Shown piece by piece: positions 24,303 to 56,833 of a stretch of 62,269 nucleotides of DNA. The stretch lies in the NCBI GenBank assembly GCA_021831685.1, contig JAKBMG010000025.1, positions 1-62,269 of the forward strand. The letters are read 5' to 3'. The stretch is from Bacteroidota bacterium (GTDB lineage Bacteria; Bacteroidota; Ignavibacteria; Ignavibacteriales; Ignavibacteriaceae). Each line of letters begins with the position of its first letter. The first letter of the stretch is position 1. The notes beneath the pieces are model-generated. The model was not told the origin of the DNA. It made no database searches and saw only the letters and a program-made list of their open reading frames with translations. Both the position numbers and the translations under genes were made by a program.

Positions 24303-24815
24303 TTACCCTACTTTTGTTTCGTTAAGTTTTTCCCATTTAACATCTATAGAGAAGGACTCGTCCTGATCTATCTTTAGACCGACTCCGGCAAGCTGTCCAT
24401 CGGTTATTTTTTTTTGGGAATAATCGGCGAGTATGGTCTCTTTGTCTATCTCTTCTTTGACCCTTAAATATGACTTGGGGAAAATTCTTTTTACTAATTC
24501 AAGAGCGGTTTTAAGATTGTACTTCCGGTTTAGCAAAGCCACTTTCGGCGGGTTAGTCCTAAAGCCAACGGATCCGATTGTAAAATCGATAGTACGCTGC
24601 TTTTCAAACTCATATTTATTTTTGATGCAATAAGCTTCGATGTCGCTTCGGAGCAAGTCCGCCTCGGCTCTAAGGGTGTGGGTTTGTTCGTCAAAGTTTT
24701 CTTTGATGCCCTGAATTTTAAGATTCATGATGGCTTCTTTCTTGGCTATCTCTGCTTCACGTTTAGCGACTTCATATAAGCCGTTTTCGATGTCTGAGAT
24801 TGATGAGAATTTCAT
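24303..24815 (-). CDS. gam: Mu Gam-like DNA-end protection protein
   Basis: 170 aa. It has a long N-terminal coiled coil (about 10-75), then GSVGFRTNPPKVALLN (about residues 87-102), the signature of the Gam/Ku-like family that binds double-strand ends and blocks host exonucleases. Position and size match Mu Gam. A ribosome-binding site (AAGGAAC) precedes the ATG. Confidence 0.9.
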   Translation of the reverse strand: MKFSSISDIENGLYEVAKREAEIAKKEAIMNLKIQGIKENFDEQTHTLRAEADLLRSDIEAYCIKNKYEFEKQRTIDFTIGSVGFRTNPPKVALLNRKYNLKTALELVKRIFPKSYLRVKEEIDKETILADYSQKKITDGQLAGVGLKIDQDESFSIDVKWEKLNETKVG

Positions 24816-26163: not shown

Positions 26164-26434
26164 TCCCATGCATCCTTCCGCGCCTTTTTGCTTTTTCATC
26201 GCGCGGGTAAAGCGTAATAAGTCTTTTCTTCTTTATTATTAGATAGCAATTGTGGACTTCGGAAAACATCAGTATGCCTTTATCGTCGTCAGACAGGTAA
26301 CGAGCCTCGCTTAATATGGACTTAACAGCCATTTTAGCGCGATTCATACGCTCGTTATAATCCTCTATAGTGTTTAACTGAGGGTTAAAACGCTCGATAA
26401 ATCTTAGGCAAATATGTTCTGTTATCTCAATCAT
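26156..26434 (-). CDS. Hypothetical early protein
   Basis: 92 aa. It begins IEITEHICLRFIERFNP and has a strand-rich C-terminal half (KGILMFSEVHNCYLIIKKKRLITLYP), reminiscent of small toxin- or RNase-like folds but not assignable. Its ATG overlaps the MuB-like stop (ATGA). Confidence 0.55.
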   Translation of the reverse strand: MIEITEHICLRFIERFNPQLNTIEDYNERMNRAKMAVKSILSEARYLSDDDKGILMFSEVHNCYLIIKKKRLITLYPRDEKAKRRGRMHGNE

Positions 26435-27387
26435 GTTAGTAATGATCCCGCTGCTTCATCGATCAAATCGTCTGATAGCGCTTCGCCGGTATCAATGACG
26501 GTTCTTTTCGTCAAAGTGATTAGGTGCTGAAGCAACCTGCCGTTATGTTTTGAGAGCTGAAGGAATGTGTTTGCAAATTTCATAGCATCCGGGAAATTAA
26601 CTTGCAAGATTGCTTTAACGTCACCGATCTGGAGAAGATTTATTTCTTTCCAAATTCCTACCCGGCTGAATAATTGTTGAAGTTCTTTGCGTGGTCCTCT
26701 GAGTCTATCTAATAGTTTCGGAGTACCTGATAAGAGCAATCCGATGCCTGTGAAGTCCTGAATTCTTCTTACTACTTCTATACATTGTACCGTGAGATTT
26801 TCGCCTTCGTCAAGGATTAAAATCCTTTTTGTTCCGGAGAGTTGCTTTACTATCTCTTTAAAGAGGACGTAATTTGAAATCGGTCTTGGCGTGTCTGAAT
26901 GTTTAGAATACGCGAAGACCGGGATCTTCAGCTCTAAGCAAATGTCTTGTATTAAACTTCGCTGGCTGACAAGCGGAGTTACCTGTATTAATATTGTAGT
27001 GCGATTCCTCTGTTTGTATTCCTGCACCGCAATTGTTTTACCGCATCCCGGAACGCCGGCTACTACTCCGATTGTGTTTTCTGTAAGCGCGTAATTCGTA
27101 ACTTTGAATATATCCTGCGCTGCAGTGGTAAGCGCAAACTTCAAGACTCCCTTGCTTACCGATTCGTTAAGTGAAGACTGCTCGTTGTTAAGGTAGCCTT
27201 CTATTCTTTCGGCAAGCTCTGCATTATTGCCGTTGTATTTGTTATTCCGGAACAGACTTATTGTCCCGGCGGACAGACCGATATTATTTGCAATCGATCT
27301 GTTGGATACTGCCGGATTCTCTAAGCAAAATTGATTTAATCTTTTGCGAATTTCGAGAACCCTTTCATCACTGAGTGTGTCTTGCAT
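26431..27387 (-). CDS. MuB-like AAA+ ATPase, transposition target selector
   Basis: 318 aa. An N-terminal HTH (SNRSIANNIGLSAGTISLF, about residues 23-41) is followed by an AAA+ domain with Walker A GVPGCGKT (about 112-119) and Walker B ILILDEGE (about 193-200). This is the MuB/TnsC-class plan: ATP-dependent DNA binding, target immunity and activation of the transposase. It lies 12 bp downstream of a degenerate relative and is in the transposase operon. Confidence 0.9.
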   Translation of the reverse strand: MQDTLSDERVLEIRKRLNQFCLENPAVSNRSIANNIGLSAGTISLFRNNKYNGNNAELAERIEGYLNNEQSSLNESVSKGVLKFALTTAAQDIFKVTNYALTENTIGVVAGVPGCGKTIAVQEYKQRNRTTILIQVTPLVSQRSLIQDICLELKIPVFAYSKHSDTPRPISNYVLFKEIVKQLSGTKRILILDEGENLTVQCIEVVRRIQDFTGIGLLLSGTPKLLDRLRGPRKELQQLFSRVGIWKEINLLQIGDVKAILQVNFPDAMKFANTFLQLSKHNGRLLQHLITLTKRTVIDTGEALSDDLIDEAAGSLLT

Positions 27388-27825: not shown

Positions 27826-29595
27826 TTAGAATCCCTCAGCTTTTGGTGTTGTGTCAATGTTTTTTGCTTTTACTTCGCCGGGCATAGACCAGCGGTCCGT
27901 AATGCTCCGTTTTTTCTTCCTGGTAACTTTTGTCTCTGATTCTTCAATCTCCGGTTTAGCCTCTTCATTAAGCCCTAGTATGTTGGCCTCTTTAAGTGTG
28001 CGCTGAATTTCCGGATAGATTTCGTCTTGTAGGAATTGCCTTGCTTCCCCGACTATGGTTGACTTCAATCTTTCTTTGAGGGCTAATTGTTCGTGCAAAG
28101 CTTTAACGTCAGCTTCAGTTCCAAGTATGCCGGCTGCCGGGTGTATCTTCGCGACGTCCATAGCTTCGCAGATAAATGATCCGTCTTTATCGTAAATGAA
28201 AATGGAGTCATGGTCAAGTATATCGTAGCGGATAAGCACTTCGTCACCTGGCCCCAGCTTTTTACCAAAGATCGCTTCATTCCAGAACCAGGTTCCGAAC
28301 ATATGTATGCCTTTACGATAGATCGTGTTGATGCTCATTTGCATCATAAGGAAGATCAATTCTCTTTTATCTATACCGGGACCTTTGCCGGCATTGAACA
28401 ACTCAGCAGGAGTTGTACCTTTCAGATGTCCGTCCATCTTTTCACGATGGTGATATTGATCTAACCACCAAGCCATTGCTTTGTGAGCTGTCCAAATATC
28501 TATAGTGGTATTAAGCATTGCTTTTTCGTACAGCTTCATATGGAGCTTCTCACCCCGGTTCATGCGCGGCGGTTTGGTTGCTATTGAGGTCCCCACATAA
28601 GTAGGCAGCGCACGTTCCATCTCTGCCATCCAGCCCCAGAAACTTTCAATCGGTTTACTTTGAGCGTGATATGCTTTAGCGAAAATTGTCCTGATTCCAA
28701 GACGTGAAAACAAAGGCTCAAGGTTCTCTATTTCACTTTTATGAAAATATTTTGAGCCGAAAGCTTTTCCGTTATCTATATATACTATCTTCGGAAGTTT
28801 GCCGAGCGTAAGTATCGCTCTCCGGAGAGCTGAAGCAATTGAGAGAGTATTCTCAGTCAGTGCGATTTCGTAACCTGCCAGATATTGGCTCTTAAATTCA
28901 AGCGCCCCGACTGTGATCATTCTTTTTGGCTGACCGGTTAGCGGATTGATGATCTCATAATTATTTACGTGACCGTCCATAACGATAATATCTCCCACCT
29001 CTATCTTATCATAATCACGTTCGAGATATGGAAGGACTTTGTCGTCAAGTCCTTTTTCTCCTTCTCGGTAGAAAACATAATCGGCATAGTTTTCTTTTGT
29101 CCAGTCATCTAAGAATCTTTTGTAGGTTGAATAACTGCGGATGTTCGGAAATCTTTTAGCTTCGAAAATATTTGTTGCTTCGCGGATTACTTCTGCGGTC
29201 AAGGGTTGCTTTGGATTGAGGTATAGTCTGATTAATATCTTTGATTCTTCGGGAGTTATGCAGCTTGGCTTTTTACTTTTGTATTGCGGTGCAAGAGCAC
29301 GGTAGTCATTGTTTGCCTCTGCATATTTTGTCTGCCATGCTCTTAGCGTTTTGACTGATCGCTCTCCGATAATCTCAAAGATCTCCGGGAAGGATCCGTT
29401 GATATATGCGCTAACAAATTTATTTTGCGCTTCGTCTTTTCTGCCTTTGAATTCAATACGGTTTGCGAAGTCTGTAAACTTCTCAACAAGCCTGCTAGCG
29501 GCAAGTGCGAATTCTAATTGCTTGGGACTCAGTTCGTTCTCAGATGTATTATCCGGAGAGTTCACTTGAATATCTGTTAAATTTTTTGTTTCCAT
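27826..29595 (-). CDS. MuA-like DDE transposase
   Basis: 589 aa. The catalytic core has D207 (IIVMDGH), D274 (VYIDNGKAF) and E317 (SKPIESFW), the DDE triad of the rve/Mu transposase fold, followed by a beta-barrel and a helical C-terminal region that should contact MuB/ClpX. The N-terminal 180 residues include helical DNA-binding parts. It carries out integration and replicative transposition of the phage. No frameshift or truncation was seen, so the element is probably active. Confidence 0.95.
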   Translation of the reverse strand: METKNLTDIQVNSPDNTSENELSPKQLEFALAASRLVEKFTDFANRIEFKGRKDEAQNKFVSAYINGSFPEIFEIIGERSVKTLRAWQTKYAEANNDYRALAPQYKSKKPSCITPEESKILIRLYLNPKQPLTAEVIREATNIFEAKRFPNIRSYSTYKRFLDDWTKENYADYVFYREGEKGLDDKVLPYLERDYDKIEVGDIIVMDGHVNNYEIINPLTGQPKRMITVGALEFKSQYLAGYEIALTENTLSIASALRRAILTLGKLPKIVYIDNGKAFGSKYFHKSEIENLEPLFSRLGIRTIFAKAYHAQSKPIESFWGWMAEMERALPTYVGTSIATKPPRMNRGEKLHMKLYEKAMLNTTIDIWTAHKAMAWWLDQYHHREKMDGHLKGTTPAELFNAGKGPGIDKRELIFLMMQMSINTIYRKGIHMFGTWFWNEAIFGKKLGPGDEVLIRYDILDHDSIFIYDKDGSFICEAMDVAKIHPAAGILGTEADVKALHEQLALKERLKSTIVGEARQFLQDEIYPEIQRTLKEANILGLNEEAKPEIEESETKVTRKKKRSITDRWSMPGEVKAKNIDTTPKAEGF

Positions 29596-32099: not shown

Positions 32100-32113
32100 C
32101 ATAATATTTTATG
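32100..32113. promoter_or_regulatory. Operator O2 overlapping the repressor start codon
   Basis: A second identical CATAATATTTTATG; its last three bases are the ATG of the divergent repressor gene. Binding here would block the repressor's own expression. No ribosome-binding site precedes that ATG, so the repressor mRNA may be leaderless. Confidence 0.7.
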
Positions 32114-32437
32114 GAATTAAAAGAAAAATTAGGAATTTGGTTAGTAAAAAGATTTGGTAATATTAACAAAGCTTCTGTCGAGCTTGATATACAATCAATA
32201 CGTCTCTATCAATATATCAAAGGCGAGAATGCACCAGGAGCCCCACTTTTGATAAAGCTATGTGAATTTGGTTGCGACATGAATTGGCTGCTGAGTGATA
32301 AAGATGAGCTACCGAATGAAAAACTTCTTGCTGAAATCGAGGCTTTGAGAAAAGAGAATGGTGAATTGAAGAAAGAGCTAAAAAATAGAGAAAAGAAAAT
32401 AGTTGATGCAGTACGAGAAGTAATGAAAAAAAGGTAA
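32111..32437 (+). CDS. Phage repressor (HTH plus coiled coil)
   Basis: 108 aa. The N-terminal HTH (NINKASVELDIQSIRLYQYIKGENAP, about residues 17-42) is followed by a C-terminal coiled coil (about 73-105) for oligomerisation. No S24 peptidase domain, so it is not cleaved by RecA; induction must use another route, as with Mu c. It faces the Ner-like gene across two operators. Confidence 0.8.
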   Translation: MELKEKLGIWLVKRFGNINKASVELDIQSIRLYQYIKGENAPGAPLLIKLCEFGCDMNWLLSDKDELPNEKLLAEIEALRKENGELKKELKNREKKIVDAVREVMKKR

Positions 32438-36007: not shown

Positions 36008-36661
36008 TTAAGGCATTTTACATGGAAATTGATGCTTCGGGTTCCAATAACTTGGGCGCACTCCATATAGGAACCCATCCCCTTTAACCGGCACTGCGCG
36101 CAGTAATCTTCTCTCTTCAAACCCTCTTACGCTCCAATCTGCCTCCCAGTTTTTAATTTCCCATCGTAAAACTGCTCCCCATCCTTGAGAGGTTTTCTTG
36201 CCTAGATGTGTCGCGAATTTTAGCAGATGTTCTATCTGATCTCTCCAGCCATGGGCGTACCATTCAACGTATGTCGCGGTGCGGTAGTATACTTTTATAT
36301 GGTAATTCTTAAACCTACCTCGCGCAGTTTCTACCTTGCCCAGCTTCTTCCCGAAGTCTATCATGTCGGAATATTTTAAGTCAAATCTCTTAGAATATGT
36401 CTGCTGATCCTCAACCATATCAGGAGACCAAACTGCAAACGAGCAACTATAAAAATGAGCTTCGGTATCCGCAAGCTTGCGAGTGAAGGGAAGGTTTATA
36501 TGCCCGAATTCCCTGGTAGAGCTTTCGAGTGGCTTGGCAAAAATTTGCTCTCCGAATTTTTCTCTGACAGCATGATAGTATAATATCCCATCAAGCGGGA
36601 GAAACTGATCTGAGATTATCCCGGTTTGCAGGTAGGCTCTTATTCTTAATGATTCATACAT
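36008..36661 (-). CDS. csf3: Csf3, Cas5-like subunit of type IV-B CRISPR-Cas
   Basis: 217 aa from the ATG at 36661, 10 nt after the cysH stop; the longer frame overlaps cysH. RAMP fold: QFLPLDGILYYHAV (about residues 19-32) is the segment typical of Csf3, and the glycine-rich loop HLGKKTSQGWGAV (about 152-164) is the RAMP G-loop. In IV-B complexes Csf3 caps the filament at the crRNA 5'-handle end. It is the last gene of the csf module and of the leftward head operon. Confidence 0.85.
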   Translation of the reverse strand: MYESLRIRAYLQTGIISDQFLPLDGILYYHAVREKFGEQIFAKPLESSTREFGHINLPFTRKLADTEAHFYSCSFAVWSPDMVEDQQTYSKRFDLKYSDMIDFGKKLGKVETARGRFKNYHIKVYYRTATYVEWYAHGWRDQIEHLLKFATHLGKKTSQGWGAVLRWEIKNWEADWSVRGFEERRLLRAVPVKGDGFLYGVRPSYWNPKHQFPCKMP

Positions 36662-36671
36662 ATTAAAAATC

Positions 36672-37352
36672 CTATGTAAAATATTTAGCGTCTGGAAACG
36701 TACTAACCAGTTTATTATATGCAGAAACATCGGCGTCTTTTAGCCTTGAGATAGCTTCGTGAGGAAACTTGCTCGGGATGCTCGTCGTTGTCCGGGCTTC
36801 AAATCCTTCACGCTGATATGCGCGTAAAATAGGAAGCTCCCTCGAAACCAAATAAGCGGCAATATCATCGACCGACCATATTGACAGTGGGGCTATTCTT
36901 ACCTTCCCGTCTTTCATCCTATAAAATTTCCCAAATTTACTTAGAGTAATTCTGCGCGCAACACTTTCTTCTCGTCTTATCCCGACGAAGAAAGCATCGT
37001 TATCGTCTGCTTTCATATTATTTGCAATGCCTTTCTTCGTTCCGCCTTCCATCCAACCTTTGTAGGTTATCCTTTCAACTTCGCAGCTAAATTTTGTCTC
37101 CCACCATTTAATCACATCGTCGTAATCGTCGATTAAATGAGTCTCCGCTTTCGCCAGCATTTTTATTTGTATATTCGGTTTTGCTTCTAATACTAAATGG
37201 AGCATCACCGAGCTATCTTTCCCAAAGCTGCAGGCAACGTAAGGTCTATCCACTTGCTGAAGACTCCATCTAATAAAACTCTTAGTCTTAGAGACAAGTG
37301 AATTGAACGAATTTAACTTTGCATAAAGCAAAGCAGATCTTTCATCCATCAT
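36672..37352 (-). CDS. cysH: CysH-like PP-loop protein of the type IV-B module
   Basis: 226 aa. It has a PP-loop ATPase motif (CSFGKDS, residues 41-47), GIRREES (124-130) and APLSIWSVDDIAAYL (154-168), as in the PAPS reductase/CysH family. It lacks the C-terminal ECGLH motif needed for sulfonucleotide reduction, so it is unlikely to be a true PAPS reductase and more likely adenylates or thiolates another target. CysH-like genes are the known companion of type IV-B systems, with unknown function. Here it lies between csf2 and csf3, with an ATGA overlap to csf2. Confidence 0.87.
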   Translation of the reverse strand: MMDERSALLYAKLNSFNSLVSKTKSFIRWSLQQVDRPYVACSFGKDSSVMLHLVLEAKPNIQIKMLAKAETHLIDDYDDVIKWWETKFSCEVERITYKGWMEGGTKKGIANNMKADDNDAFFVGIRREESVARRITLSKFGKFYRMKDGKVRIAPLSIWSVDDIAAYLVSRELPILRAYQREGFEARTTTSIPSKFPHEAISRLKDADVSAYNKLVSTFPDAKYFT

Positions 37353-38296
37353 TTTATTTCAGCTAAAAAGTTCTTAATCTCATTGGCTTTTTCTTTCAGA
37401 TGATTCTCATATTTTTGCCCGATTACAAAATCGACTTCCTTGCCTTCTAGATGTGCGCGGCTATCTATCTCAATCCATTTATCCATCTTGATAGCGATCT
37501 CGCCAAAGCCAACTCCGGACTTTCCACCTACGCGCGGGAATTTACTGAACTGAATTATGGTTGTCAGGAATGCCTCAAACTCAACATCTGTTACGTCTTC
37601 CAAAACTATCTTCCAATAAAATTTAGTTCCGGCGGAAAGGGTTTCGAGATAGTACATCATCTGTTGTGGCCCGGCTTTAGTAATACTAGCCTTCGCGCCA
37701 GGCTGCTCTAAAAGTTTTCTAGTCTCCCCGTCGATCATCTTGCGTAGATTCTCATTCTTCTCGTCGTCTTTGCGTGTGTACATCTCTAGTTGGCAATAAT
37801 CCCAAATGCTTTTAACAAACTCAGGTTTTAGTTTCTCCGGCATCAGATGTAAAGTCTCCTCGCAGATTGGTATCATCTTCCCAATTTTTATTTTGCCAGG
37901 CATTATAGAGTTGCCGATAGCCCCGCCAAACAGCCCGATAAGCGGGATCGTCTCTTTCATTCTCCGGAAATAATCAACGTTCAGAGCGGACTCCCCATTG
38001 CTAGTTAACGCTCCACCGCTAAACAAAAAATAAAATGCCGGGAGGGTCAACCCGCCGACTGATCCGCTCTCCATATCCACACCATAACCAAGCCTCTGGA
38101 GCATATGATACATTCCAATGTCTCGTAGCGCCCCGCGTATGCTGTTCCCGCTGATAACAGGGACATCCTCAACATCGCCATCCGGCTGTACAAATTTCTC
38201 TCTTCGCAATTGAGTCGTAATTCCATTTTGCTCTCCGCCATTATGAGAAATGCTGCTCAATGCTGTTACGATACCTTCCATTATATAAGTTTTCAT
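37349..38296 (-). CDS. csf2: Csf2, Cas7-like backbone subunit of type IV-B CRISPR-Cas
   Basis: 315 aa. SSISHNGGEQNG (about residues 14-25), VPVISGNSIRGALRDIG (about 45-61) and the RVGGKSGVGFGEI glycine loop (about 255-267) are Cas7-group RAMP features characteristic of Csf2. Several copies would polymerise along the guide RNA. It has an ATGA overlap with cas11 upstream and cysH downstream. Confidence 0.9.
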   Translation of the reverse strand: MKTYIMEGIVTALSSISHNGGEQNGITTQLRREKFVQPDGDVEDVPVISGNSIRGALRDIGMYHMLQRLGYGVDMESGSVGGLTLPAFYFLFSGGALTSNGESALNVDYFRRMKETIPLIGLFGGAIGNSIMPGKIKIGKMIPICEETLHLMPEKLKPEFVKSIWDYCQLEMYTRKDDEKNENLRKMIDGETRKLLEQPGAKASITKAGPQQMMYYLETLSAGTKFYWKIVLEDVTDVEFEAFLTTIIQFSKFPRVGGKSGVGFGEIAIKMDKWIEIDSRAHLEGKEVDFVIGQKYENHLKEKANEIKNFLAEIK

Positions 38297-38658
38297 TTTT
38301 CTTCCTCGAACATTTTATATGAATCGTTAATTTCTTGTCTTAGAACTCTTACCTGCAATACTAAGTAAGTGGTCTCCGAGCGCAGCCATTTCAATATTCT
38401 TTTATCTTCGCCGCTATTCATTACCTCGTTAACGTTTGCCAAGAACTTTGCCATTAAGTCTATCGGCATAAGCTTCAATATCTTAGACAAGAAGTGGTTA
38501 AGCTTAGAGGTATAGGCAGCAACACGAATATTATTTTCAAAATGCCGCCATACATCCGTTTTGTACTTTTGCTTATAATCCGGATCAATGCATTCCCAAA
38601 GAGGGAAAAGCAATTTCATTGCGACATCCTCTTGTGTGACTTCTTTTTTCTTATTCAT
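38293..38658 (-). CDS. cas11: Cas11-like small subunit of the type IV-B complex
   Basis: 121 aa, all helical, basic, with no motif beyond its position and size. Small subunits diverge fast; the call relies on its place between csf1 and csf2, where IV-B loci keep cas11, and on the 8-bp and 4-bp overlaps with both neighbours. Confidence 0.7.
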   Translation of the reverse strand: MNKKKEVTQEDVAMKLLFPLWECIDPDYKQKYKTDVWRHFENNIRVAAYTSKLNHFLSKILKLMPIDLMAKFLANVNEVMNSGEDKRILKWLRSETTYLVLQVRVLRQEINDSYKMFEEEK

Positions 38659-39313
38659 CTGTTTCGCCTTCTTTTTGTGATAACCAAATTGCTAAATCAA
38701 AAATTGCGGAACCACGATATTGTTTTAAAACATCTTCCGCTGTTCTCCAATCTTTAACCCCATATTTTAGTACTCGATGCTGTATGTAATTGCCGGAGAG
38801 CATTTCAGCTTTTGAAAAATTATTATCGAGCAGAGTGTCGCCTACTTTTTTAATTTTAGATAAGACTTCTTTATCCCTATGAATGAATTGATCCTCGAAT
38901 TGCCATGTCCCAACTTTATGCTTAAACAATAAATGCCGTTGCCCGCTGTCTGAAATGACGCAAACGTTAGGGTCGTTATTAATTATCAGCTCGTATATCT
39001 CTTTCTTCTGAGCTTTAGTTAGGACATACCAGCTATCATTAACGACTATATGCGTGTAAGTTCTAAATCGCTGCGGTTTTACTTTTTTAACTTTTTGAGC
39101 TATTAGCGGCGATGACTCTTCGAAACAAAATAACGCCTCATTGCTGATTATCGTCCCCGGAAAGAGAGAAGCGTAGTCTGTAAAAGTGTCTTTTACCCAG
39201 TCGTCAAATTTTAACCCGGTTAGTTCTTTCCCGATGATTCTACAGGTGCCTTTTTCTGTGCCATAGACTTTGCCAGAAGAAAACTGATATAATATCTCAC
39301 ATGGATGTTTCAT
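38651..39313 (-). CDS. csf1: Csf1, large-subunit-like protein of type IV-B CRISPR-Cas
   Basis: 220 aa. The C-terminal two thirds match Csf1: RTYTHIVVNDSWYVLTKAQK, then DSGQRHLLFKHKV (about residues 122-134), NNFSKAEMLSG and QYRGSAIFDLAIWLSQ. The N-terminal zinc-finger CxxC pairs seen in many Csf1 proteins are not intact here (lone Cys at 5, 24 and 63). It would recognise the PAM-side of target DNA. Its ATG overlaps the stop of the phage gpG-like gene (ATGA), tying it to the head operon. Confidence 0.83.
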   Translation of the reverse strand: MKHPCEILYQFSSGKVYGTEKGTCRIIGKELTGLKFDDWVKDTFTDYASLFPGTIISNEALFCFEESSPLIAQKVKKVKPQRFRTYTHIVVNDSWYVLTKAQKKEIYELIINNDPNVCVISDSGQRHLLFKHKVGTWQFEDQFIHRDKEVLSKIKKVGDTLLDNNFSKAEMLSGNYIQHRVLKYGVKDWRTAEDVLKQYRGSAIFDLAIWLSQKEGETDE

Positions 39314-39888
39314 CTTGTTATGTGATTTTTTATTTCGTCAATAATTTTATTCTTGAATGAATCCGTAAGTACCATAAACGGACGCGCTGGGATGTCCACC
39401 GTATATGATTGCTGCGAGATAGTATAGCGCAGTGCGTTCTTGTGAGTCTTCTTTGCGAACATTACAAGATTGGGATGCCCTTCCTGCTTAAGCAAACCGC
39501 CCTTTTTATCGGTTCGAAAAGCCATATTGCGCGTGCGCGGGTGATGGAATATTTGCGCTCCGAATTGATGTACTTTTGCGTATATCAAATTTGTTGAGAC
39601 GATAGATTCATTTTCCGTTGCGCTTGCCTGTATAGAACGTTCAAGGTTTCCGCGGGCTTCTAAAATTCTGGATGATAATCCTTTCCGTCTTTTTTGCCTA
39701 AGCGTAGAGGCTTTAAGAGGCGCCCACCCACCTGGTACCTCTGCTCCCTGAGTCCTGAAATTATTTTCAACTGAGGCTTGCAGATGCCCTGCAATTGCGG
39801 TCATAAGTATCTTATCCGGGATGACTTTTGCTTTAAGGTCTCCGATTACTTTGTTGATCTGGTCAACATTACTTTGGTTGCTATCCAT
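39310..39888 (-). CDS. Phage virion morphogenesis protein (Mu gpG-like)
   Basis: 192 aa. VENNFRTQGAEVPGGWAPLKASTLRQKRRKG (about residues 35-65) and the C-terminal DIPARPFMVLTDSFKN are typical of the PF05069 virion morphogenesis family, which acts in head/tail joining. It overlaps the gpF-like gene by 8 bp, and its stop overlaps the csf1 start. Confidence 0.88.
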   Translation of the reverse strand: MDSNQSNVDQINKVIGDLKAKVIPDKILMTAIAGHLQASVENNFRTQGAEVPGGWAPLKASTLRQKRRKGLSSRILEARGNLERSIQASATENESIVSTNLIYAKVHQFGAQIFHHPRTRNMAFRTDKKGGLLKQEGHPNLVMFAKKTHKNALRYTISQQSYTVDIPARPFMVLTDSFKNKIIDEIKNHITR

Positions 39889-40639
39889 TATTAGCCTTAT
39901 AAGCGGCGCTTAAATCAGCGTCATACTGCGCTAAATCGGGCGTGAATAATTCTTTCCCGGGATTGTAGCCCCATCCTTCGCCTACCTTAACTTTTACGTT
40001 TGCGCCATTCTGCACCGTAAGCCCTCTTGAAGCGACTTCGTCGGCTGTTAATGCAGTTACAAAGCATCCGCAGTTAAATCCGTTCGGCGGGTATATCTTA
40101 TCCCAAATAGGATCATCCGCCGCAAACACTTTTCCTGCGTAGCGTGCATGCGCTTTACGTTTAGTTGGACGGTCGATTTGATTATAAAGCCAATATGGGC
40201 GGCTTGCAGCGTTTTGTGTTTGGAATTTATAGCGAGCTGCATTGTAGGCTACATTTGCATTTGTCTGGTAGATGGTGGCTAATCTGCGCGGACTTCCGAG
40301 CTGAACGATTTTCCCCGGGTCAACTCCTGATTTCGGATCGTAGCCGGGTACCTGGTCGGCTCTTACCTTATCCCACCATCCAAGGTCTTTTAATTCGGGT
40401 TCGAGATTTTTTACAAACTCGTCGTACGTAATCCCTTCCTTGAAAATTTTATCGACTTCATCTTTTAACGACTGGAGTATATCAAGCTTCATCACCTTTG
40501 CAACTGTGAAAGACCGTACGTGAGCATCCTGCCAAACGTCCCGCCAGTTCCATGAAAAGGTATAGCCTTTGCTTGAATACCATTTCACAATTTCCTCCGG
40601 AGGAAGCGTCAATAAATATTTAAGATCATTCTCGTTCAT
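39881..40639 (-). CDS. Mu gpF-like head morphogenesis protein
   Basis: 252 aa. ATIYQTNANVAYNAARYKFQ (about residues 126-145), then RPYWLYNQ...TKRKAHARYAGKVFAADDPIWDKIYPPNGFNCGC, is the PF04233 minor head protein signature with the conserved cysteines of the C-terminal part. It is a minor capsid component needed for head assembly. Confidence 0.92.
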   Translation of the reverse strand: MNENDLKYLLTLPPEEIVKWYSSKGYTFSWNWRDVWQDAHVRSFTVAKVMKLDILQSLKDEVDKIFKEGITYDEFVKNLEPELKDLGWWDKVRADQVPGYDPKSGVDPGKIVQLGSPRRLATIYQTNANVAYNAARYKFQTQNAASRPYWLYNQIDRPTKRKAHARYAGKVFAADDPIWDKIYPPNGFNCGCFVTALTADEVASRGLTVQNGANVKVKVGEGWGYNPGKELFTPDLAQYDADLSAAYKANNG

Positions 40640-41122: not shown

Positions 41123-42799
41123 TTATTTATCCGCTTCAGCTTTCACGTTGCCTTCCAGCTCGGTGATGAGCAAAACCTTTGTCATCATGTCTTCAATCTG
41201 ATTTGTATCCATCTTTGGGAAGAGCGCTGCAAGGTTATTTTTAAACCCATCATAGCTGCTTGATTTCTTCGCAAGCTCGATAACCGGCTTTAATGTTTGC
41301 TCGATTGAAAATTGCAGCAGCTTATCAGGAAGCGCACCGGTAACGAGATCAGCTATGCTATTATTACTTGCGGCTGCATCTGATAGTTCGATGCGCTTAC
41401 CTATGAATTTATTTAATAAATTTTTGAAAGATGAAAAAGAATTCGGAGTCTTTTCGACAGGAACAGGATGCAGAGCATCCGGCACCGGCGGAACCGGTTC
41501 TTTAAGAGGATTGACATCCGGCTGAGGATTCAAGGGCGGCAATCCATCTGCCGGTAATGCCGGCTGGCTGCTAAGATCAAACTCATCGTCTTCAAGATTA
41601 TATTTACGTTTGAAATAATCCGGCGTGAAGTTTACGCCGATTCCTTTCAGGTTCACGTCTCTTTCTGAAAGGTCTTTATTTATATCCTCAATTTCCTTCA
41701 CTTCAAGCGTGGGATACTTCCCGCTTCCGATATTAAGATCGACAACTCTTTTGAATAGAATGTTGAAAAATGTTGTGGGAAAATCCCGGTCAGTTCCTTT
41801 GATGTCGCCTTCTATTATCACAGCCCCGGTGTCTGCGGATGCTCTTCCGCCTACCCTTTGAATGTCGGTAGACAGCGCATTTAATAGCAGTGCTTTTGTG
41901 ATTGCATTGTCGCATCGCTGTAAATATTTCTCGTGAAGATCTCCGGAGGCGCTGCCCTTCATCTCGATAAGATCAATTGACGAATCATCAGGACCCGTCG
42001 CAACTGCATCCTGTACCATATTCGATAGCTTCGACAATAGATCGTTATGGTCTTCTTGTTTAGCTCCTCTTGGCAACTTCCCGAATATAAAAGGCATCCC
42101 GTATTTTTCAAGGAAGGTAGTAAAGAAACGCATTCCGCCGCGCTTAAATGTAACAGGCCAGAAGCATCTTGATAGTGCTTTATCGCCATAAGGATTTTTG
42201 AAAGATGGATCATTCCGCAGCAAAATAAACTTTGCCGCTATCTTCGGATCGGCATCTTTGCCCCTGATAATCATTCCTTCATAATTATCGATAGTCCTAA
42301 ATCTTAAGCGGTTCAGCGAATCAAAGACGAACCATTCGCGCGGCTTCTCCCAAATCTCTACCGGCAAATATTTGCCGTCAACCATTCCCCAAATAATCTC
42401 GAAAGTAGAATAGCCATAGAATACCGGGTTGAGTGTTTGAGATATAATGTCCTTTGTTGCGCATCCGTTCTCTTCAAGTATCCTAAGAGTCTTTTTGCAA
42501 AGCTCCACTTCTGCATCTCCTGCATCGTTGGGCTCTACATCCCAGTCGAGACTCTTCGTCAAATTCTTCCTGCGGTTTAGTAGCGGGCCTACCTGATCAT
42601 CGCTTAATAAATCTTCGTAGACAGATTGATCCATCCCAAGTCTTCGGAGTACCGGATCAGGATCCGGGAGATAATTGAAGAACCCCGTATATGCTCCAGC
42701 TGCGAATTGACGTGTCGCAAGCTCTGTGGTTAGGCCTTCGCTCACCTTGTTAAGAGGTACGAACGTAGTCGGATTTATATAGATTCCTTTTGCTGCCAT
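41123..42799 (-). CDS. Portal protein (DUF935, Mu gp29-like)
   Basis: 558 aa. The N-terminal half follows the DUF935 pattern (DQVGPLLNRRKNLTKSLDWDVEPND, then WEKPREWFVFDSLNRLRFR and KFILLRNDPSFKNPYGDKALSRCFWP). The C-terminal 140 residues have a proline-rich linker and a helical tail. It forms the dodecameric DNA channel at the head vertex. Confidence 0.93.
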   Translation of the reverse strand: MAAKGIYINPTTFVPLNKVSEGLTTELATRQFAAGAYTGFFNYLPDPDPVLRRLGMDQSVYEDLLSDDQVGPLLNRRKNLTKSLDWDVEPNDAGDAEVELCKKTLRILEENGCATKDIISQTLNPVFYGYSTFEIIWGMVDGKYLPVEIWEKPREWFVFDSLNRLRFRTIDNYEGMIIRGKDADPKIAAKFILLRNDPSFKNPYGDKALSRCFWPVTFKRGGMRFFTTFLEKYGMPFIFGKLPRGAKQEDHNDLLSKLSNMVQDAVATGPDDSSIDLIEMKGSASGDLHEKYLQRCDNAITKALLLNALSTDIQRVGGRASADTGAVIIEGDIKGTDRDFPTTFFNILFKRVVDLNIGSGKYPTLEVKEIEDINKDLSERDVNLKGIGVNFTPDYFKRKYNLEDDEFDLSSQPALPADGLPPLNPQPDVNPLKEPVPPVPDALHPVPVEKTPNSFSSFKNLLNKFIGKRIELSDAAASNNSIADLVTGALPDKLLQFSIEQTLKPVIELAKKSSSYDGFKNNLAALFPKMDTNQIEDMMTKVLLITELEGNVKAEADK

Positions 42800-43223: not shown

Positions 43224-44585
43224 TTAATATTTACTTAAGACAGATTCCATTTTCCTTCTGCCGCCGGATGTAATAATAAGCGGTCCGGTATTCGTCTTAG
43301 CCGCATAATTAGCTAGTGCGAAAGCCCAGAAGTGATCTGCATGCGCTCCGTCTTTTTCTTGATCCGCTTCATAGCGTACGTTACCGGCGGATGTAGTCAC
43401 AGCTTTAACCGAATAAAGATCATCCCTAACTACTTTGTCGCGCGGTATTAATACTTTTCTTCCTTCGACCATTATATAAGTCGTCGATGCGAGATCTTCT
43501 TTTACCTTCGAGGTGAACATAACCGGCTCGACTCTCAATGCTCCATAAGCCTTCTGCGCTTCTTCGGCAAGCTGGTTACCTATGCCGGTAGCATCAATAC
43601 AAGCGCGTCTAAAATTTTTATGAGAAAGAACTCCGTATAGAATTTCTCTTTGATCGCTGTAAGGCATATTCTTTAATCTCGCGACTCGTCTCGCATATAG
43701 CATCTCTCCGAGCTTCTCATTAACCCAAATAACAGAAGGGTTGTTCTTCCTGCCTATATCCATCCCGACGAATAAATCACCGGTTATATTTAACAGCAGC
43801 TCATCAAGTATATTATCGCGTTCAATTGGGTTTATTAACTCATAAGAAAGCAGATGCGAATTTGAACTTGAACGCGGTATGCAGTAGAACTCTTCGTCAA
43901 TTGCTTCTTGAGTCATTCCGGAGAAAGCATCCTCTAAGAAATTAGCGACTTCTTCTTTAGTTGCTTTATGACCTAGTATAGTATCGACCAATCCTTGCTT
44001 AATAGCGTCGTCGATTGTAATCTTGAAGAGCTTCCAGTTCTTCATCGTACCTTCGGCGCCTTTTTTAATTTCTGTAATTAAAAAATTATAATAAGAGGCA
44101 TCGCTATTATGCGTCGATATAATGCGGACATGATTGCCCCACATAATCGAGGGCTTAGCTGCGGTGTACATCTTCTCTTGCTCTTGATGATGCGCGAATT
44201 CATCAAGCGTAATGTCGCCGCCCTTTGATCTGAATCTTCTTGGATTAGATGATATTGCGTTTGCTTCATTGCCGTTTGCAAAGCGTACTCTATGAGCAGT
44301 TACGTCATCATCTTTGTCAATGACGACCTCGCCAACATACTTAGCGCCTATATTCAGCACCTTTGAGAAATACTCGACATAATCAATGTATTCTTCACCT
44401 GCCGAAATATCCGCGCTGGAGAACCAGCTCTTCTTCCCTTTGACCAGACCTGCAGCATGGCGTCTTGTCATGCGGTACGCTTCAGCGTAAGTAATACCGG
44501 TACGTCTGCTCTTTTCACTCAAGGCAAAACGCCCATCAAAATTTATCCATTCCTTCTGATATGGTAAAAATTTCAGTTTTGGCAT
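43224..44585 (-). CDS. Terminase large subunit (Mu gp28-like)
   Basis: 453 aa. The N-terminal ATPase has SEKSRRTGITYAEAY (a Walker A-like loop, about residues 23-37) and DEFAHHQEQ (Walker B, about 130-138). The C-terminal nuclease part includes VGMDIGRKNNPSVIWV and ACIDATGIGNQLAEEA. It packages DNA into the head. Its start lies beyond a 364-bp gap from the small subunit gene. Confidence 0.93.
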   Translation of the reverse strand: MPKLKFLPYQKEWINFDGRFALSEKSRRTGITYAEAYRMTRRHAAGLVKGKKSWFSSADISAGEEYIDYVEYFSKVLNIGAKYVGEVVIDKDDDVTAHRVRFANGNEANAISSNPRRFRSKGGDITLDEFAHHQEQEKMYTAAKPSIMWGNHVRIISTHNSDASYYNFLITEIKKGAEGTMKNWKLFKITIDDAIKQGLVDTILGHKATKEEVANFLEDAFSGMTQEAIDEEFYCIPRSSSNSHLLSYELINPIERDNILDELLLNITGDLFVGMDIGRKNNPSVIWVNEKLGEMLYARRVARLKNMPYSDQREILYGVLSHKNFRRACIDATGIGNQLAEEAQKAYGALRVEPVMFTSKVKEDLASTTYIMVEGRKVLIPRDKVVRDDLYSVKAVTTSAGNVRYEADQEKDGAHADHFWAFALANYAAKTNTGPLIITSGGRRKMESVLSKY

Positions 44586-46107: not shown

Positions 46108-46166
46108 CTTTGATAGACCTGATTTATAAGTTTGCGTCAAGTAAAAAATGGAACGGGAATTTCGAG

Positions 46167-47345
46167 ATGAGCAAATTTAGTTGGATGCCTATTTTAAGAG
46201 TCGGAAAGTTCACCGATAAAAACAAGCAGGTCGTAGAGATAGACAATTCTACCCTTGATAAAATTATCTCAGCAACGGACCTCAGCAAGGAACCTCAATT
46301 CGTAATTGAGCATCCGAAAGAAGACTCAATCGGCTTCGGAACTATCAGCGCGCTGAAGAGAGCCGGCGATTATCTATTTGCAATGCCAAAGGAAGTAAAT
46401 GAAAAATTTAAGAACGCTGTCAATTCAGGGAAGCTTCCCGGACGCAGCGTTACTCTTGACAAAAATACTTTTTCGCTGAATAACATTTCTTTTTTACCTC
46501 CGGAGATTGAGCCAGCAGTTAGCGGACTCGGCAACTATTCATTTTCGCAAAACGAAGGTCCTGATGCTGCGGATCTGAATCTTCAATTATATCTTTCCGG
46601 AATAGACTCTCACTTTGCGGATGTTGTCGCTGATAAAATCGAATTTCAAAACTTTGAAGTCTCAAGCTATCCCTTTAGATCAATCCAAACATTGTTCAGA
46701 AATGTTAAAAATTTTTTAATTGAGAATTTCTCTTTAGATGATGCCGAGAAAGTTCTCCCGGAATATTCGTTGAGCGATATAGGCAATCCGCCTTCGATTT
46801 TCGAGACTCCGGATAATGAACCGGCCACAAATGTAAATCCAAGTTTTTCAACCAATAAAAATGGAGATAAAATGCCACCGATTGAATTATCAAAATTCGA
46901 CTTATCAAAAGTCGATGCGAATCTAAGAACAGCAATTCAAGAGCTGATGGGCGAGAATCAAACTCTTACCGCAAACCTTGATGCAAAAAATATTGAACTT
47001 CAAGCTGCTTCCTCAAAACTTACGGCAGTAGAATCCGCAAAACTTAGAAATGAAGTTCTGCAGTTCTGCGAAAGCGATGAAGTGAAGTTAAAAATTAAAC
47101 CTGCCGACAAAGAGAAAACAGTTCAGTTCCTCATGGCACAGAAAGAAAAAGGAGTAATCGAGTTTTCCGCTCCGGATAATACGAAAATACAGCTTGACGC
47201 TTTCGAGTTTGCAAAAGAGCAAATTAAAAATTCTCCAGATGTTATCGAGCTTAGTGAGCTGGCGACAAATGCGAGCGCAGGCAAAGCAGGAACTCCGGAT
47301 TATCTATCTACCGCAAAGCAAATGGCTGACGCTGTAAACAGATAA
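46167..47345 (+). CDS. Head maturation protease with embedded scaffold (Mu I/Z-like)
   Basis: 392 aa from the ATG at 46167; a TTG at 46110 would add 19 residues and lacks a ribosome-binding site. The N-terminal half (to about 170) shows the Mu I protein pattern, including KLPGRSVTLDKNTFSLNNISFL and PAVSGLGNY. The C-terminal part is helical, scaffold-like. An in-frame ATG at 46872 with GGAG 5 nt upstream could give a separate 157-aa scaffold (Z), as in Mu. Confidence 0.88.
   Translation: MSKFSWMPILRVGKFTDKNKQVVEIDNSTLDKIISATDLSKEPQFVIEHPKEDSIGFGTISALKRAGDYLFAMPKEVNEKFKNAVNSGKLPGRSVTLDKNTFSLNNISFLPPEIEPAVSGLGNYSFSQNEGPDAADLNLQLYLSGIDSHFADVVADKIEFQNFEVSSYPFRSIQTLFRNVKNFLIENFSLDDAEKVLPEYSLSDIGNPPSIFETPDNEPATNVNPSFSTNKNGDKMPPIELSKFDLSKVDANLRTAIQELMGENQTLTANLDAKNIELQAASSKLTAVESAKLRNEVLQFCESDEVKLKIKPADKEKTVQFLMAQKEKGVIEFSAPDNTKIQLDAFEFAKEQIKNSPDVIELSELATNASAGKAGTPDYLSTAKQMADAVNR
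46863..46874 (+). promoter_or_regulatory. Internal ribosome-binding site and start for the scaffold form
   Basis: GGAG at 46863-46866 is followed by ATAAA and an in-frame ATG at 46872. Translation from here gives only the C-terminal scaffold of the protease gene, the Mu I/Z arrangement. Confidence 0.65.
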
Positions 47346-47908: not shown

Positions 47909-48949
47909 ATGATTACCATAAATCCCTTTGGCTTTCAGACATTGACCACAGCGGTCAACCAGATGAAACCAGTACCTCAGTTTGTTAAGAATCTTCTTTT
48001 CGGACGAGTGGAAACGAATGCAACGAAAACCGTAATGGTTGACGTAATAGTCGGCGGGCAGAAAGTTGCTCCTTTTGTTAAACGCGGAAATCCCGCGAGA
48101 GTAATCGGCAATTTAGGGCAGAAAGCTAATATTGTCGAACCTCCCCAAATAAGATTAAAGAAATTTCTACGACCTTCCGATCTGTTCTATACACGCGGAG
48201 CTGATGCTCAAATGTTTGTTCCCGGAGGTATTGCCGGAAATGATCCAATCCAGCAAGCAAGGCAGGATCGCATGGCTAGAGAGCAAAAAGATTTAAAGGA
48301 CATTATCGACAGAACGGTTGAGTTCCTCTGTTGCAAAGGCCTCAGCGGCGCTTATTCAATCGCCCAGGACGATGGAACATTCTCAATTGATTTTTCGATG
48401 CCTTCAGCAAATAAACCTACTGCTGCTGTCCTGTGGTCAACTTCGGCTACTGCGAAACCTACTAAGGATATGAGATCCTGGAAAACAATTGCGCAAAAGG
48501 CAAGCGGGAAAATCCCCACTGTCGCAATAATGAACTCTACAACTTACGAAGCATGGATCGCAACAACCGACGTCCAGACATTTTTGGATAAATGGAAAAT
48601 AAATATTGGACAAATAAACACCGAACAATCTAACATCAACGCCGGAGCTGAAAAAAGAGCTACTGTTGACGGAGTCGATTACTACGTATATGACGGCATC
48701 TATATTGACAAAGACGGAAATCAGCAATCACTAATACCTGACGGCTATGTCTCTTTAGTCTCTCCAAACGCAGATCATAGACTACAGTTTGCAGGCGTAG
48801 AAGATCTTGAAGCCGGTACCGTCGTGGCTCAATACTTCAGTAAAGACTGGATTGAGAAAGATCCCTCAGGGCTTTGGCTCTTGGTCGAGTCTCATCCTCT
48901 TCCGACCTTCAACGAGCCTGCTGCTAATATTTATGCGAAGGTGCTTTAG
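47909..48949 (+). CDS. Major capsid protein (Phage_cap_E family)
   Basis: 346 aa. TNATKTVMVDVIVGGQKVAPFV and RGNPARVIGNLGQKANIVEPPQIRLKK (about residues 32-90) match the lambda gpE-type family (PF03864), and RPSDLFYTRGADAQMFVPGG follows. This is the shell protein of the head. Confidence 0.92.
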   Translation: MITINPFGFQTLTTAVNQMKPVPQFVKNLLFGRVETNATKTVMVDVIVGGQKVAPFVKRGNPARVIGNLGQKANIVEPPQIRLKKFLRPSDLFYTRGADAQMFVPGGIAGNDPIQQARQDRMAREQKDLKDIIDRTVEFLCCKGLSGAYSIAQDDGTFSIDFSMPSANKPTAAVLWSTSATAKPTKDMRSWKTIAQKASGKIPTVAIMNSTTYEAWIATTDVQTFLDKWKINIGQINTEQSNINAGAEKRATVDGVDYYVYDGIYIDKDGNQQSLIPDGYVSLVSPNADHRLQFAGVEDLEAGTVVAQYFSKDWIEKDPSGLWLLVESHPLPTFNEPAANIYAKVL

Positions 48950-49013: not shown

Positions 49014-49085
49014 CGCGGAGTGGAGGAGTGGCACCTCGTCTGGCCCATACCCAGAAGATTGCAAGTTCGAGTCTTGTCTCCGCTA
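49014..49085 (+). tRNA. tRNA-Met (CAT), initiator-type features
   Basis: A complete 72-nt cloverleaf can be drawn: acceptor GCGGAG/CTCCGC, D stem GAGG-type 10-25 with an A11-T24 pair, anticodon stem TCTGG/CCAGA with loop CCCATAC (anticodon CAT), and T arm GCAAG-TTCGAGT-CTTGT. Position 1 (C) does not pair with position 72 (T), and A11:T24 is present; both are hallmarks of bacterial initiator tRNA. Position 33 is C instead of the near-universal T. CCA is not encoded (ACAA follows). It lies inside the phage late operon. Confidence 0.85.
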
Positions 49086-49114
49086 CAAACCCTATATAAA
49101 TCAAATAGTCCGCA

Positions 49115-56173: not shown

Positions 56174-56200
56174 TCTGTAATCTGTTCTTTGTAAATCTGT
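56172..56200 (+). repeat. Three AATCTGT copies after the variable repeat
   Basis: AATCTGT occurs at 56172, 56179 and 56194 just downstream of the target gene stop. Downstream signals can help homing in DGRs; whether these do is not known. Confidence 0.35.
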
Positions 56201-56224
56201 TTTAATTATTAGGAAGGGTCGATC

Positions 56225-56557
56225 TTGGAAAGTCTAGTAATCTTTCAGAAGGCGTACGATTGTTTTCTGTACCTTCATATTGCGCTAAAGAATTTTCCAA
56301 AGTCGGAGAAATTTGTTTTAGCAGCGGATATAAAAAATTCGTTCTTTGAAATGATGACGCTTTTTATAACAGCTAATAAGCTGCAATATAAGAAGAAAAC
56401 TCTCTATGAGGCGGACGTAAAATTAGAGATTATAAGATTTCAGTTAAGGGCTGCAAAGGATTTGCAGTTTCTCAAGCTGAAACAATATGAAATTTTAGCG
56501 GCTCAATTATCCGAGGTCGGGAAAATGCTCGGCGGCTGGATAAAAGTTGCTAAATAG
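56225..56557 (+). CDS. avd: DGR accessory variability determinant (Avd)
   Basis: 110 aa from a TTG with GGAAGGG upstream. It is a four-helix-bundle protein of the Avd/IVP type (KAYDCFLYLHIALKNFPKSEKFVLAADIKNSFF near the N-terminus), basic, between the target gene and the template repeat. It partners the reverse transcriptase in templated mutagenesis. Confidence 0.85.
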   Translation: MESLVIFQKAYDCFLYLHIALKNFPKSEKFVLAADIKNSFFEMMTLFITANKLQYKKKTLYEADVKLEIIRFQLRAAKDLQFLKLKQYEILAAQLSEVGKMLGGWIKVAK

Positions 56558-56572
56558 GATAAAGTCTGTTAG

Positions 56573-56682
56573 TGCCGATTCGCGGTGGCAATTGCAACAA
56601 TGGCGGCAATGCGGGTGTGTCCGCGTTGAACGTGAACAATGGTCGCGGTAATTCGAATTGGAATATTGGGTTCCCGCTCGCT
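56573..56682 (+). repeat. DGR template repeat (TR)
   Basis: 110 bp between avd and the reverse transcriptase. Its adenines form AAT/AAC asparagine codons when read in the target frame (…GGNCNNGGNAG…NVNNGRGNSNWNIG…), the standard DGR design that lets A-to-N changes give many residues without stop codons. A stop codon also follows in frame. Confidence 0.96.
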
Positions 56683-56833
56683 CTTGATTAAAGCTCGATT
56701 CTTATTTTTACGAGAATAAGACTATGCGACAAACAAAAGGAGACTTGTCCTTCGCGATAAATTAACGCGAAAAATAAATTCACTCAAATACGGTTAGTAA
56801 CTGCAAAGATAATTCTGTATAGGAGATACTGTT

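Follow-up and report, generated by a model that had tools for sequence, protein, structure and literature searches.

A type IV-B CRISPR-Cas operon in a Mu-like prophage of Ignavibacteria, and related cassettes with exchangeable enzymes at the CysH position

We analysed a contig of 62269 bases, hereafter the window, from a Bacteroidota genome of the class Ignavibacteria (source assembly of 4.5 Mb in 221 contigs, 99.8% complete), which carries a Mu-like prophage and, inside it, a cassette of CRISPR-associated genes. The list of open reading frames (ORFs) showed five minus-strand ORFs at 36008–39313, read as csf1, cas11, csf2, a CysH-like gene and csf3. In PADLOC profile searches, the Cas8-like csf1 product of 220 amino acids (aa; 38651–39313) matched Csf1_0_IV at 3.4e-15, the small subunit encoded by cas11 (121 aa; 38293–38658) matched Cas11_1_IV at 7.6e-21, the Cas7 protein encoded by csf2 (315 aa; 37349–38296) matched Csf2_0_IV at 1.9e-78, and the Cas5 protein encoded by csf3 (36008–36661) matched Csf3_0_IV at 6.7e-47. 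Csf2 also matched the Pfam RAMPs family at 8.3e-7. The NCBIfam models cas7_csf2 and cas5_csf3 matched Csf2 at 1.2e-20 and Csf3 at 3e-13, in each case under the curated cut-off. The remaining gene, at 36672–37352, encodes a PP-loop protein of 226 aa with an SFGKDS motif (Pfam PAPS_reduct, 3.5e-13). A preliminary description made from the sequence had named these five genes; the four csf and cas11 matches lie far beyond chance and, together with the Pfam match of the CysH-like companion, bear out all five names.

The genes are closely packed, with overlaps of 8 nucleotides (nt) between csf1 and cas11, and of 4 nt both between cas11 and csf2 and between csf2 and cysH. The mechanically called csf3 ORF opens at 36730; its relatives begin near the ATG at 36661, which is probably the start codon. 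With this start, csf3 lies 10 nt behind cysH without overlap. Of the five tightly overlapping genes claimed earlier, the first four thus do overlap, and csf3 probably does not. At the other end of the cassette, the csf1 start codon and the stop codon of a Mu G-like gene share the 4-nt word ATGA (39310–39313). The sequence motifs that had been quoted for these proteins were found to be conserved among relatives: in a 15-row Csf2 alignment that includes the window, S49, G50, N51, R54, G55 and R58 as well as G257, G258, G263 and G265 were invariant, and the LPLD segment and SQGWG loop of Csf3 and the SGQ(R/K)H segment of Csf1 were also present in the related loci L002 and L003. One promoter-like site with 11 of 12 matching positions lies behind csf3 on the minus strand (35975–35947), where it would serve the next gene; in all, the scan gave 31 promoter-like sites against a shuffle mean of 26, and 17 terminator-like sites against 10.

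No array of at least three exact 22-nt repeats was detected in the window, and no two-copy repeat at array spacing was found around the module. Profile scans of nine ORFs at 34.4–40.6 kb returned no helicase or Cas6 family, and no nuclease in the cassette. The earlier statement that array, Cas6 and DinG are lacking holds at this scope: none of these, nor any adaptation gene, was found at the locus (nine ORFs scanned; the rest of the window was not specifically searched for DinG), and the Cas1 and PF10040 matches of the assembly sit on other contigs. IV-B systems are described as lacking an array as a rule (PMC8175902). The type IV signature is clear, the best Csm3 model reaching 4.3e-9 against 1.9e-78 for Csf2_0_IV, and csf1, cas11, csf2 and csf3 stand together with a CysH-like companion recognized by both profile and fold. 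The DinG helicase, Cas6 and array of type IV-A were not found at the locus. The Cas10-like HD large subunit of type IV-C was likewise not found; the subunit here has 220 aa, matches Csf1_0_IV and has no Pfam match. These results confirm that the cassette is a complete type IV-B operon, csf1-cas11-csf2-cysH-like-csf3.

To compare related cassettes, genes were called by iterated profiles in 54 loci, namely the window and L002–L054. Left out of the count at the CysH position were L038, L047 and L048, in which csf3 was not found, and L054, which is cut inside csf2; the loci include the near-copies L036/L037, L038/L040, L027/L028 and L029/L045. A CysH-type gene was present in 43 of the 50 loci with csf2 and csf3, in 22 between these two genes and in 21 behind csf3 (at most 3.5 kb away and sometimes separated from it by one or two genes), and was missing in 7. 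Every one of the 50 loci carried either a CysH-type gene or a replacement. A Pfam search for PF01507 agreed, with matches in none of seven records (L002, L013, L041, L042 and L049, and also L047 and L048 with their truncated csf2) and in both of two controls; for L051 and L053, absence was judged by the CysH profile alone, over the sequence stretch around the locus.

Three kinds of replacement were observed. In L002, L041, L042 and L053, the CysH position is held by a protein of 154–160 aa belonging to one family (35–78% identity to the L053 copy). AlphaFold2 predicted a class I methyltransferase fold for it (best predicted local distance difference test score, pLDDT, 82.8); the L002 protein matched the Pfam families RrnaAD (3.1e-6, passing the cut-off), TRM5-TYW2 (2.6e-4) and TRM (0.005), and the family alignment matched PDB sequences best at 1.9e-4 (PH0793). 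A pattern-limited IMG/VR scan with the methyltransferase profile confirmed three contigs, each an already known csf locus. In L013 and L049, a radical-SAM protein of 513 aa is encoded directly behind csf3 (Pfam, 6.3e-8 and 2.7e-7; NCBIfam B12-binding radical-SAM models, 2.5e-7 and 1.6e-20, under cut-off), the two proteins being 23% identical over 348 columns. In L051, the position holds a pair of genes, one TGT-like (phrog_887, 7e-4) and one glucosyltransferase-like (phrog_7922, 5e-5); the TGT-like protein gave best matches of only E about 1 against PDB sequences. The replacement genes of L002, L041, L053 and L051 overlap csf2 and csf3 by 1–26 nt, and that of L042 leaves a gap of 16 nt before csf3.

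Other genes were found added beside CysH rather than in its place: a Cas6-like gene in L016 and L046 (Pfam, 7.9e-15 and 1.4e-13), and a SpoU-family methyltransferase gene, which overlaps CysH in L003 (2.2e-11) and is set apart from it by another gene in L010 (1.4e-8). At L032 10879–12746 and L035 10900–12680, the position is held by a longer PAPS-reductase-like gene (437 and 423 aa) together with a neighbouring gene of ParB-like appearance by eye; a short second CysH is also present in L035. In L047 and L048, the csf2 reading frame extends over just 182 aa, other genes follow it within the contig and csf3 was not found, so that these are apparently decayed cassettes. The close relatives L005 (8274–8561), L006 (12276–12620), L051 (11722–11976) and L054 (3231–3581), though not the window, encode a small protein immediately beside csf3 or csf1 that looks DNA-binding by eye; the L006 protein has a weak PHROGs match to a transcriptional regulator (0.0012).

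We then asked how the replacements are distributed on a Csf2 tree of 49 rows, from which L032 and the short L044, L047 and L048 were left out and in which plasmids were not included. The methyltransferase loci fell in different places, L002 with L007 (support 100/99), L042 with L039 (100/98), and L041 and L053 with L035 (96/88), and L007, L039 and L035 all carry CysH. Likewise, L051 paired with the CysH-bearing L006 (100/99). A single clade of the four methyltransferase loci was rejected (approximately unbiased test, p 1.4e-7). Parsimony required three changes between methyltransferase and CysH, and six between CysH and any other gene (41 CysH rows and 7 other rows), with the direction of change not fixed. 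An earlier Csf2 tree with seven plasmid rows had long plasmid branches, placed the plasmids in three places and set L002 weakly beside a Thermococcus row. The CysH position of these related cassettes is thus one that holds exchangeable enzymes.

The CysH-like protein itself was examined by alignment and model. In a 26-row alignment, the S-x-G-K-x-S residues and G124, E129, R133, P155, W159, Y179 and R187 were invariant. No conserved cysteine column was found past W159 in these rows, and the window protein has no cysteine there; single rows do carry cysteines, and in many rows a cysteine stands two positions ahead of P155, at a site occupied by alanine in the window protein. The C-terminal cysteine of CysH has a catalytic role (PMC8175902), and its lack argues against a reductase, even though the PP-loop fold and similarity to phosphoadenosine phosphosulfate (PAPS) reductase are present. 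A CasCysH without the cysteine, with possible ATP alpha-hydrolysis, was proposed earlier (PMC8175902). The AlphaFold2 model of the window protein (pLDDT 93) matched the PAPS domain of human flavin adenine dinucleotide (FAD) synthase (Z 17.9, 163 aligned, 2.4 Å), moss adenosine phosphosulfate (APS) reductase (Z 17.9, 173 aligned, 2.5 Å) and CysD (Z 17.5, 162 aligned, 2.6 Å). Matches within 1 Z count as tied, so the fold alone cannot pick between a reductase and an enzyme that transfers adenosine monophosphate (AMP); the modelled fold is as near to the AMP-transferring enzymes FAD synthase and CysD as to the reductases. These data bear on the view that the gene is an ordinary auxiliary metabolic gene of sulfur assimilation, present here by chance. 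Its PHROGs label, PAPS reductase (moron/auxiliary metabolic), and the PAPS reductase at the top of its Foldseek list would fit that view. It appears most improbable given the missing cysteine, the position of the gene inside the operon with a 4-nt overlap, and the fact that 43 of 50 loci, as well as all seven plasmid loci opened, have a CysH-type gene alongside their csf genes.

A further explanation is that the complex represses rival elements under RNA guidance, in the manner of type IV-A, its guides either being taken from an array elsewhere or being matured by a Cas6 of the cassette. Type IV systems are usually proposed to serve in competition between elements (PMC11656645), the phage cassettes L016 and L046 have the Cas6-like gene noted above, and in a Thermococcus plasmid cassette a gene annotated as cas6 separates csf2 from cysH. 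Against this stand the lack of an array in the window or of a recognized one within about 5–6 kb of the scanned modules, and the lack of a helicase or nuclease among the matches in the window's cassette; repression in this form seems quite unlikely. The scan of about 5–6 kb around each csf2 did match possible mini-arrays in L008, L016, L026 and L033, none of which was taken as a CRISPR array, three of the four looking of low complexity and that of L026 being an irregularly spaced palindrome. The L026 repeat, at about 5752–5900 upstream of csf1, consists of a palindromic word of about 25 nt and is possibly an operator.

The Mu-like nature of the prophage, also claimed in the preliminary description, was supported by many profile matches. 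On the minus strand were found genes for Gam-like end protection (24303–24815; phrog_491, 5.8e-29), a MuB-type transposition protein (26431–27387; phrog_296, 3e-63) and a MuA-type transposase (27826–29595; phrog_310, 1.6e-75) and, beyond the cassette, the Mu G-like virion morphogenesis gene directly upstream of csf1 (39310–39888; Pfam Phage_tail_S, 1.7e-21), a Mu F-like minor head gene (39881–40639; Pfam Phage_Mu_F, 2.9e-18), a Mu-type portal gene (41123–42799; phrog_113, 1.8e-94) and the terminase large subunit gene (43224–44585; phrog_2, 4.9e-26). On the plus strand were the head maturation protease (46110–47345; phrog_976, 3.9e-40) and the major head protein (47909–48949; phrog_29, 1e-60). 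The contig also has Cox-like, head decoration, tail and tape measure genes. Its low end carries bacterial genes (Omp85, LpxD-like); phage content begins at about 21 kb, the left end being placed by gene content and G+C only (G+C of 0.30–0.40 at 14–22 kb, then mostly 0.38–0.45), and the phage extends past the contig end at 62269.

Close Mu-like relatives were identified by portal (61% identity in genomes G063 and G076) and by Mu F (62% and 61% in the viral contigs L117 and L118). In L117, one short opposite-strand gene comes after the Mu G gene (53%), then a homologue of 32111–32437 (36%) and, further on, a CII-like gene (74%), MuA (68%) and MuB (62%). In L156, from G063, two short opposite-strand genes come after Mu G (56%), and the second of them shows weak similarity (26%) to 32111–32437. 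Neither had any csf gene match (BLASTP, E 1e-4). Eight relatives, drawn from 19 viral contigs plus the genome loci found, were compared gene by gene (L156, L117, L118, L120, L124, L125, L132 and L129); csf matches were nil, although L118 stops 381 bases past Mu G. Since L117 and L156 keep the head genes and other flanking genes (26–74% identity) without a csf match at that place, the cassette is an accessory insertion at the end of the head-gene run, behind the Mu G-like gene, in line with the earlier view of the module as cargo.

Four further features were observed on this contig. A tRNA-Met (CAT) gene lies at 49014–49086 in the late region, just past the major head protein gene; tRNAs, considered as possible substrates of the system, were found in 3 of 53 loci besides the window. 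A repeat of 164 nt occurs in two copies (93%) with a spacing of 219 nt (54024–54406), within the gene at 53442–54560. A diversity-generating retroelement spans 56052–57853, with a variable repeat (56052–56165) that closes a tail-fibre-like gene, Avd (56225–56557; Pfam bAvd, 5.1e-31), a template repeat (56573–56686), an RT-14 RNA (56681–56826) and a reverse transcriptase (56834–57853; 7.3e-24); the template has A at 11 of 12 template-variable differences. The fourth is a spacer match, described with the host arrays below.

The presence of a class 1 effector and MuA/MuB on one element raises the idea that the nuclease-less Csf complex steers Mu transposition to RNA-chosen sites, like a CRISPR-associated transposon (CAST). 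Mu-like CASTs of types I-A and V-F are known (PMC11656645) and resemble the window in having CRISPR effector genes in a Mu-type element. Unlike them, the window has csf genes away from the transposase, with the csf3 end 6.4 kb and several genes from MuA and the cassette beside head genes instead. No array that could encode guides was found in the window or by the module, Mu-like relatives live without csf, and none of the other 49 phage records with csf genes, of which many may be fragments, gave a MuA match. We regard such targeting as having very little to recommend it.

Csf2 relatives were found in 1 of 50,697 phage records, 69 of 72,556 plasmid records, 48 IMG/VR contigs and 4 GTDB contigs; the scans were pattern-limited, so these counts are lower bounds. 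A larger Csf2 alignment gave no contigs beyond those already found. None of 96 relatives besides the window's own genome had Csf2, and 395 genomes of the phylum gave four matches, namely the window's own, G477 (3e-141) and two weaker ones (1.7e-12 and 3.3e-5). G477 belongs to the same class as the window genome; besides L052, it holds a second, diverged csf1-cas11-csf2-csf3-cysH cassette (L162, contig C26). Identity to the window Csf2 was 35–67% for IMG/VR copies and 29–35% for plasmid copies among the matches listed. The earlier remark that type IV is mainly a plasmid system must be read beside these 48 virus contigs and beside published IV-B systems in prophages, lytic phages and an archaeal virus (PMC10848311, PMC11656645). 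A terminase phrog_2 match was present in 26 of the 49 csf-bearing records (the 48 IMG/VR predicted-virus contigs and phage SPI1) and absent from 23. A link to packaging genes was considered and judged too weak: csf2 lay within 8 kb of the terminase in 16 of 26 records against 11.8 expected (p 0.04), and in 10 of 19 against 5.9 expected (p 0.04) among records of at least 30 kb. Next to its csf3, the 6-kb fragment L041 carries genes of Mu F and Mu G type (Pfam, 1.3e-12 and 1.9e-6) and so may be another Mu-like carrier, although only the window is demonstrated as one here.

Compared with plasmid IV-B systems, of which Mycobacterium sp. JS623 is a published example (PMC7937560), the window cassette is alike in its gene set: all seven plasmids opened had csf2, small genes in csf position and an annotated PAPS-reductase-family gene within 6 kb. 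It differs in lying on an integrated Mu-like phage, in its Csf2 sequence, and in having CysH between csf2 and csf3, whereas in the actinobacterial plasmids opened CysH lies behind or divergently (csf3 there being judged by position only). The Thermococcus nautili plasmid THER333_p is alike in placing a CysH-type gene after csf2 and before the final gene of its cluster, but it also has the annotated cas6 noted above, and its Csf2 is 31% identical. Skermania phage SPI1 (KR011061) carries csf1-cas11-csf2-csf3-cysH in a sequenced phage, annotated as hypothetical; unlike the window, it has no MuA match and has CysH behind csf3, and its Csf2 is 32% identical. The Bathyarchaeia Fuxivirus is likewise a virus with IV-B and a CysH-like gene, but is an archaeal virus with a two-repeat mini-array and, in the account available, is not described as Mu-like (PMC10848311). 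IV-B-related variants with a RecD-like helicase (PMC11656645, PMC12669027) are a precedent for a varying accessory gene, which as such is therefore not new; they carry a helicase rather than a modification-type enzyme, and no helicase was seen among the window ORFs scanned. Our literature search, incomplete and thus weak as to absence, gave no report of IV-B in a Mu-like phage or of CysH replacement by such enzymes. The Mu-like setting is apparently unreported, the comparative exchange at the CysH position appears to be the new point, and the replacement cassettes would, if confirmed, be a new IV-B variant.

The assembly also has CRISPR-Cas systems of its own, with Cas1 on three contigs. One contig (L160) holds a type I-B set (Cas3b 8e-230, Cas5b, Cas7b, Cas8b 6e-90, Cas6b and Cas1) with 34 repeat copies, and another (L158) a type III set, III-D by best PADLOC matches (Cas10d 2e-102, Cas7 III-D 9e-159, RT-Cas1), with 60 repeat copies. 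One of 92 spacers, from the I-B array, matched the prophage at 31 of 35 positions (55142–55176, plus strand), inside the tail-fibre-like gene at 54563–56173; among the other real spacers the best had 25 of 35, and 460 shuffled spacers gave at most 71%. The mismatches lie at positions 3, 9, 15 and 30 from what we take, from repeat and PAM (protospacer adjacent motif) conventions, to be the PAM side (5' flank ...ACCT), the orientation being set in the same way. This setting suits the published idea (PMC8175902) of a guide-RNA sponge, in which an array-less Csf filament absorbs host small RNAs, including the CRISPR RNAs (crRNAs) of the host's CRISPR systems, and so shields the phage, the CysH-like protein helping or being secondary. 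Yet the published IV-B complex showed no enrichment of mature crRNAs, which made up about 0.12% of reads, and a negative co-occurrence of IV-B and other CRISPR systems was reported (PMC7937560). No enzyme would be needed for a sponge, but all 50 judged loci have a CysH-type or replacement gene, and the four spacer mismatches, one at position 3, may by mutation alone explain the survival of the phage. We therefore consider a sponge doubtful.

Taken together, we tentatively favour the possibility, still short of probable, that the Csf ribonucleoprotein (RNP) is a platform presenting nucleic acid to an exchangeable modifying enzyme, within an accessory IV-B operon of a Mu-like prophage. The 4-nt ATGA overlap with the Mu G-like gene suggests that the cassette would be co-transcribed with the head genes and expressed late. 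Csf2, Cas11, Csf1 and Csf3 would assemble as a Cas7-type filament on RNA provided in trans, as suggested by the lack of an array and by the published IV-B structure, that of JS623, in which a Csf2-Cas11 filament holds heterogeneous RNA of about 55–60 nt (PMC7937560). The modifying enzyme may associate physically with this RNP and act on the RNA that it holds, or on nucleic acid paired to that RNA, probably in the service of phage counter-defence or take-over. On comparative grounds, the exchange of such enzymes at one fixed position is something that neither a sponge, nor a repressor, nor a gene of sulfur metabolism would lead one to expect.

Several points weigh against this platform model. 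A joint action of the CysH-like protein or its replacements with the Csf complex is putative, as is any substrate, and the grouping of the replacements as modification enzymes was made after the genes were seen. Such enzymes are frequent in phages. For the CysH-like model, the Foldseek E-value order puts a Vibrio PAPS reductase first and FAD synthase third, and in L032 the sole CysH-type gene is the longer, different PAPS-reductase-like one (phrog_2302, 1.2e-86). The methyltransferase model was built on a 4-row alignment, its five versions ranging in pLDDT from 60 to 83, and the fold matches RNA, protein and small-molecule enzymes alike (VIA Z about 13–15); its sequence matches are modest, the best Pfam value being 0.012 in L053 and no match being obtained in L042. 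Radical-SAM proteins of the L013/L049 type act on a wide variety of substrates, the TGT-like call in L051 is weak and lacks a Pfam match, and some of the three methyltransferase changes may be returns to CysH, as their direction is not fixed. In addition, the published RecD-like helicase variants (PMC11656645, PMC12669027) imply that the accessory gene may modify nothing.

A broader and less likely form of this platform model, drawn by analogy, would make IV-B an RNP-directed machine for nucleic-acid modification, in which one gene position serves different chemistries. The CysH-like protein might transfer AMP, while the replacements might bring methylation, radical-SAM chemistry, and base exchange plus glycosylation. 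Box C/D and H/ACA RNPs offer the analogy for RNA-guided modification. If it were true, class 1 effectors would have a further use besides cleavage and repression.

The function of IV-B and of its constant CysH-like companion has been called unknown (PMC8175902, PMC7937560, PMC11656645). The exchange of CysH for small enzymes of recognizable chemistry makes this function directly testable, through the chemical mark that such an enzyme would leave. A Mu-like phage in an assembly with I-B and III-D systems and a near-matching spacer is a natural case for asking whether IV-B is a counter-defence. Finally, some of the viral 'CysH' genes now filed under sulfur metabolism may be partners of Csf proteins.

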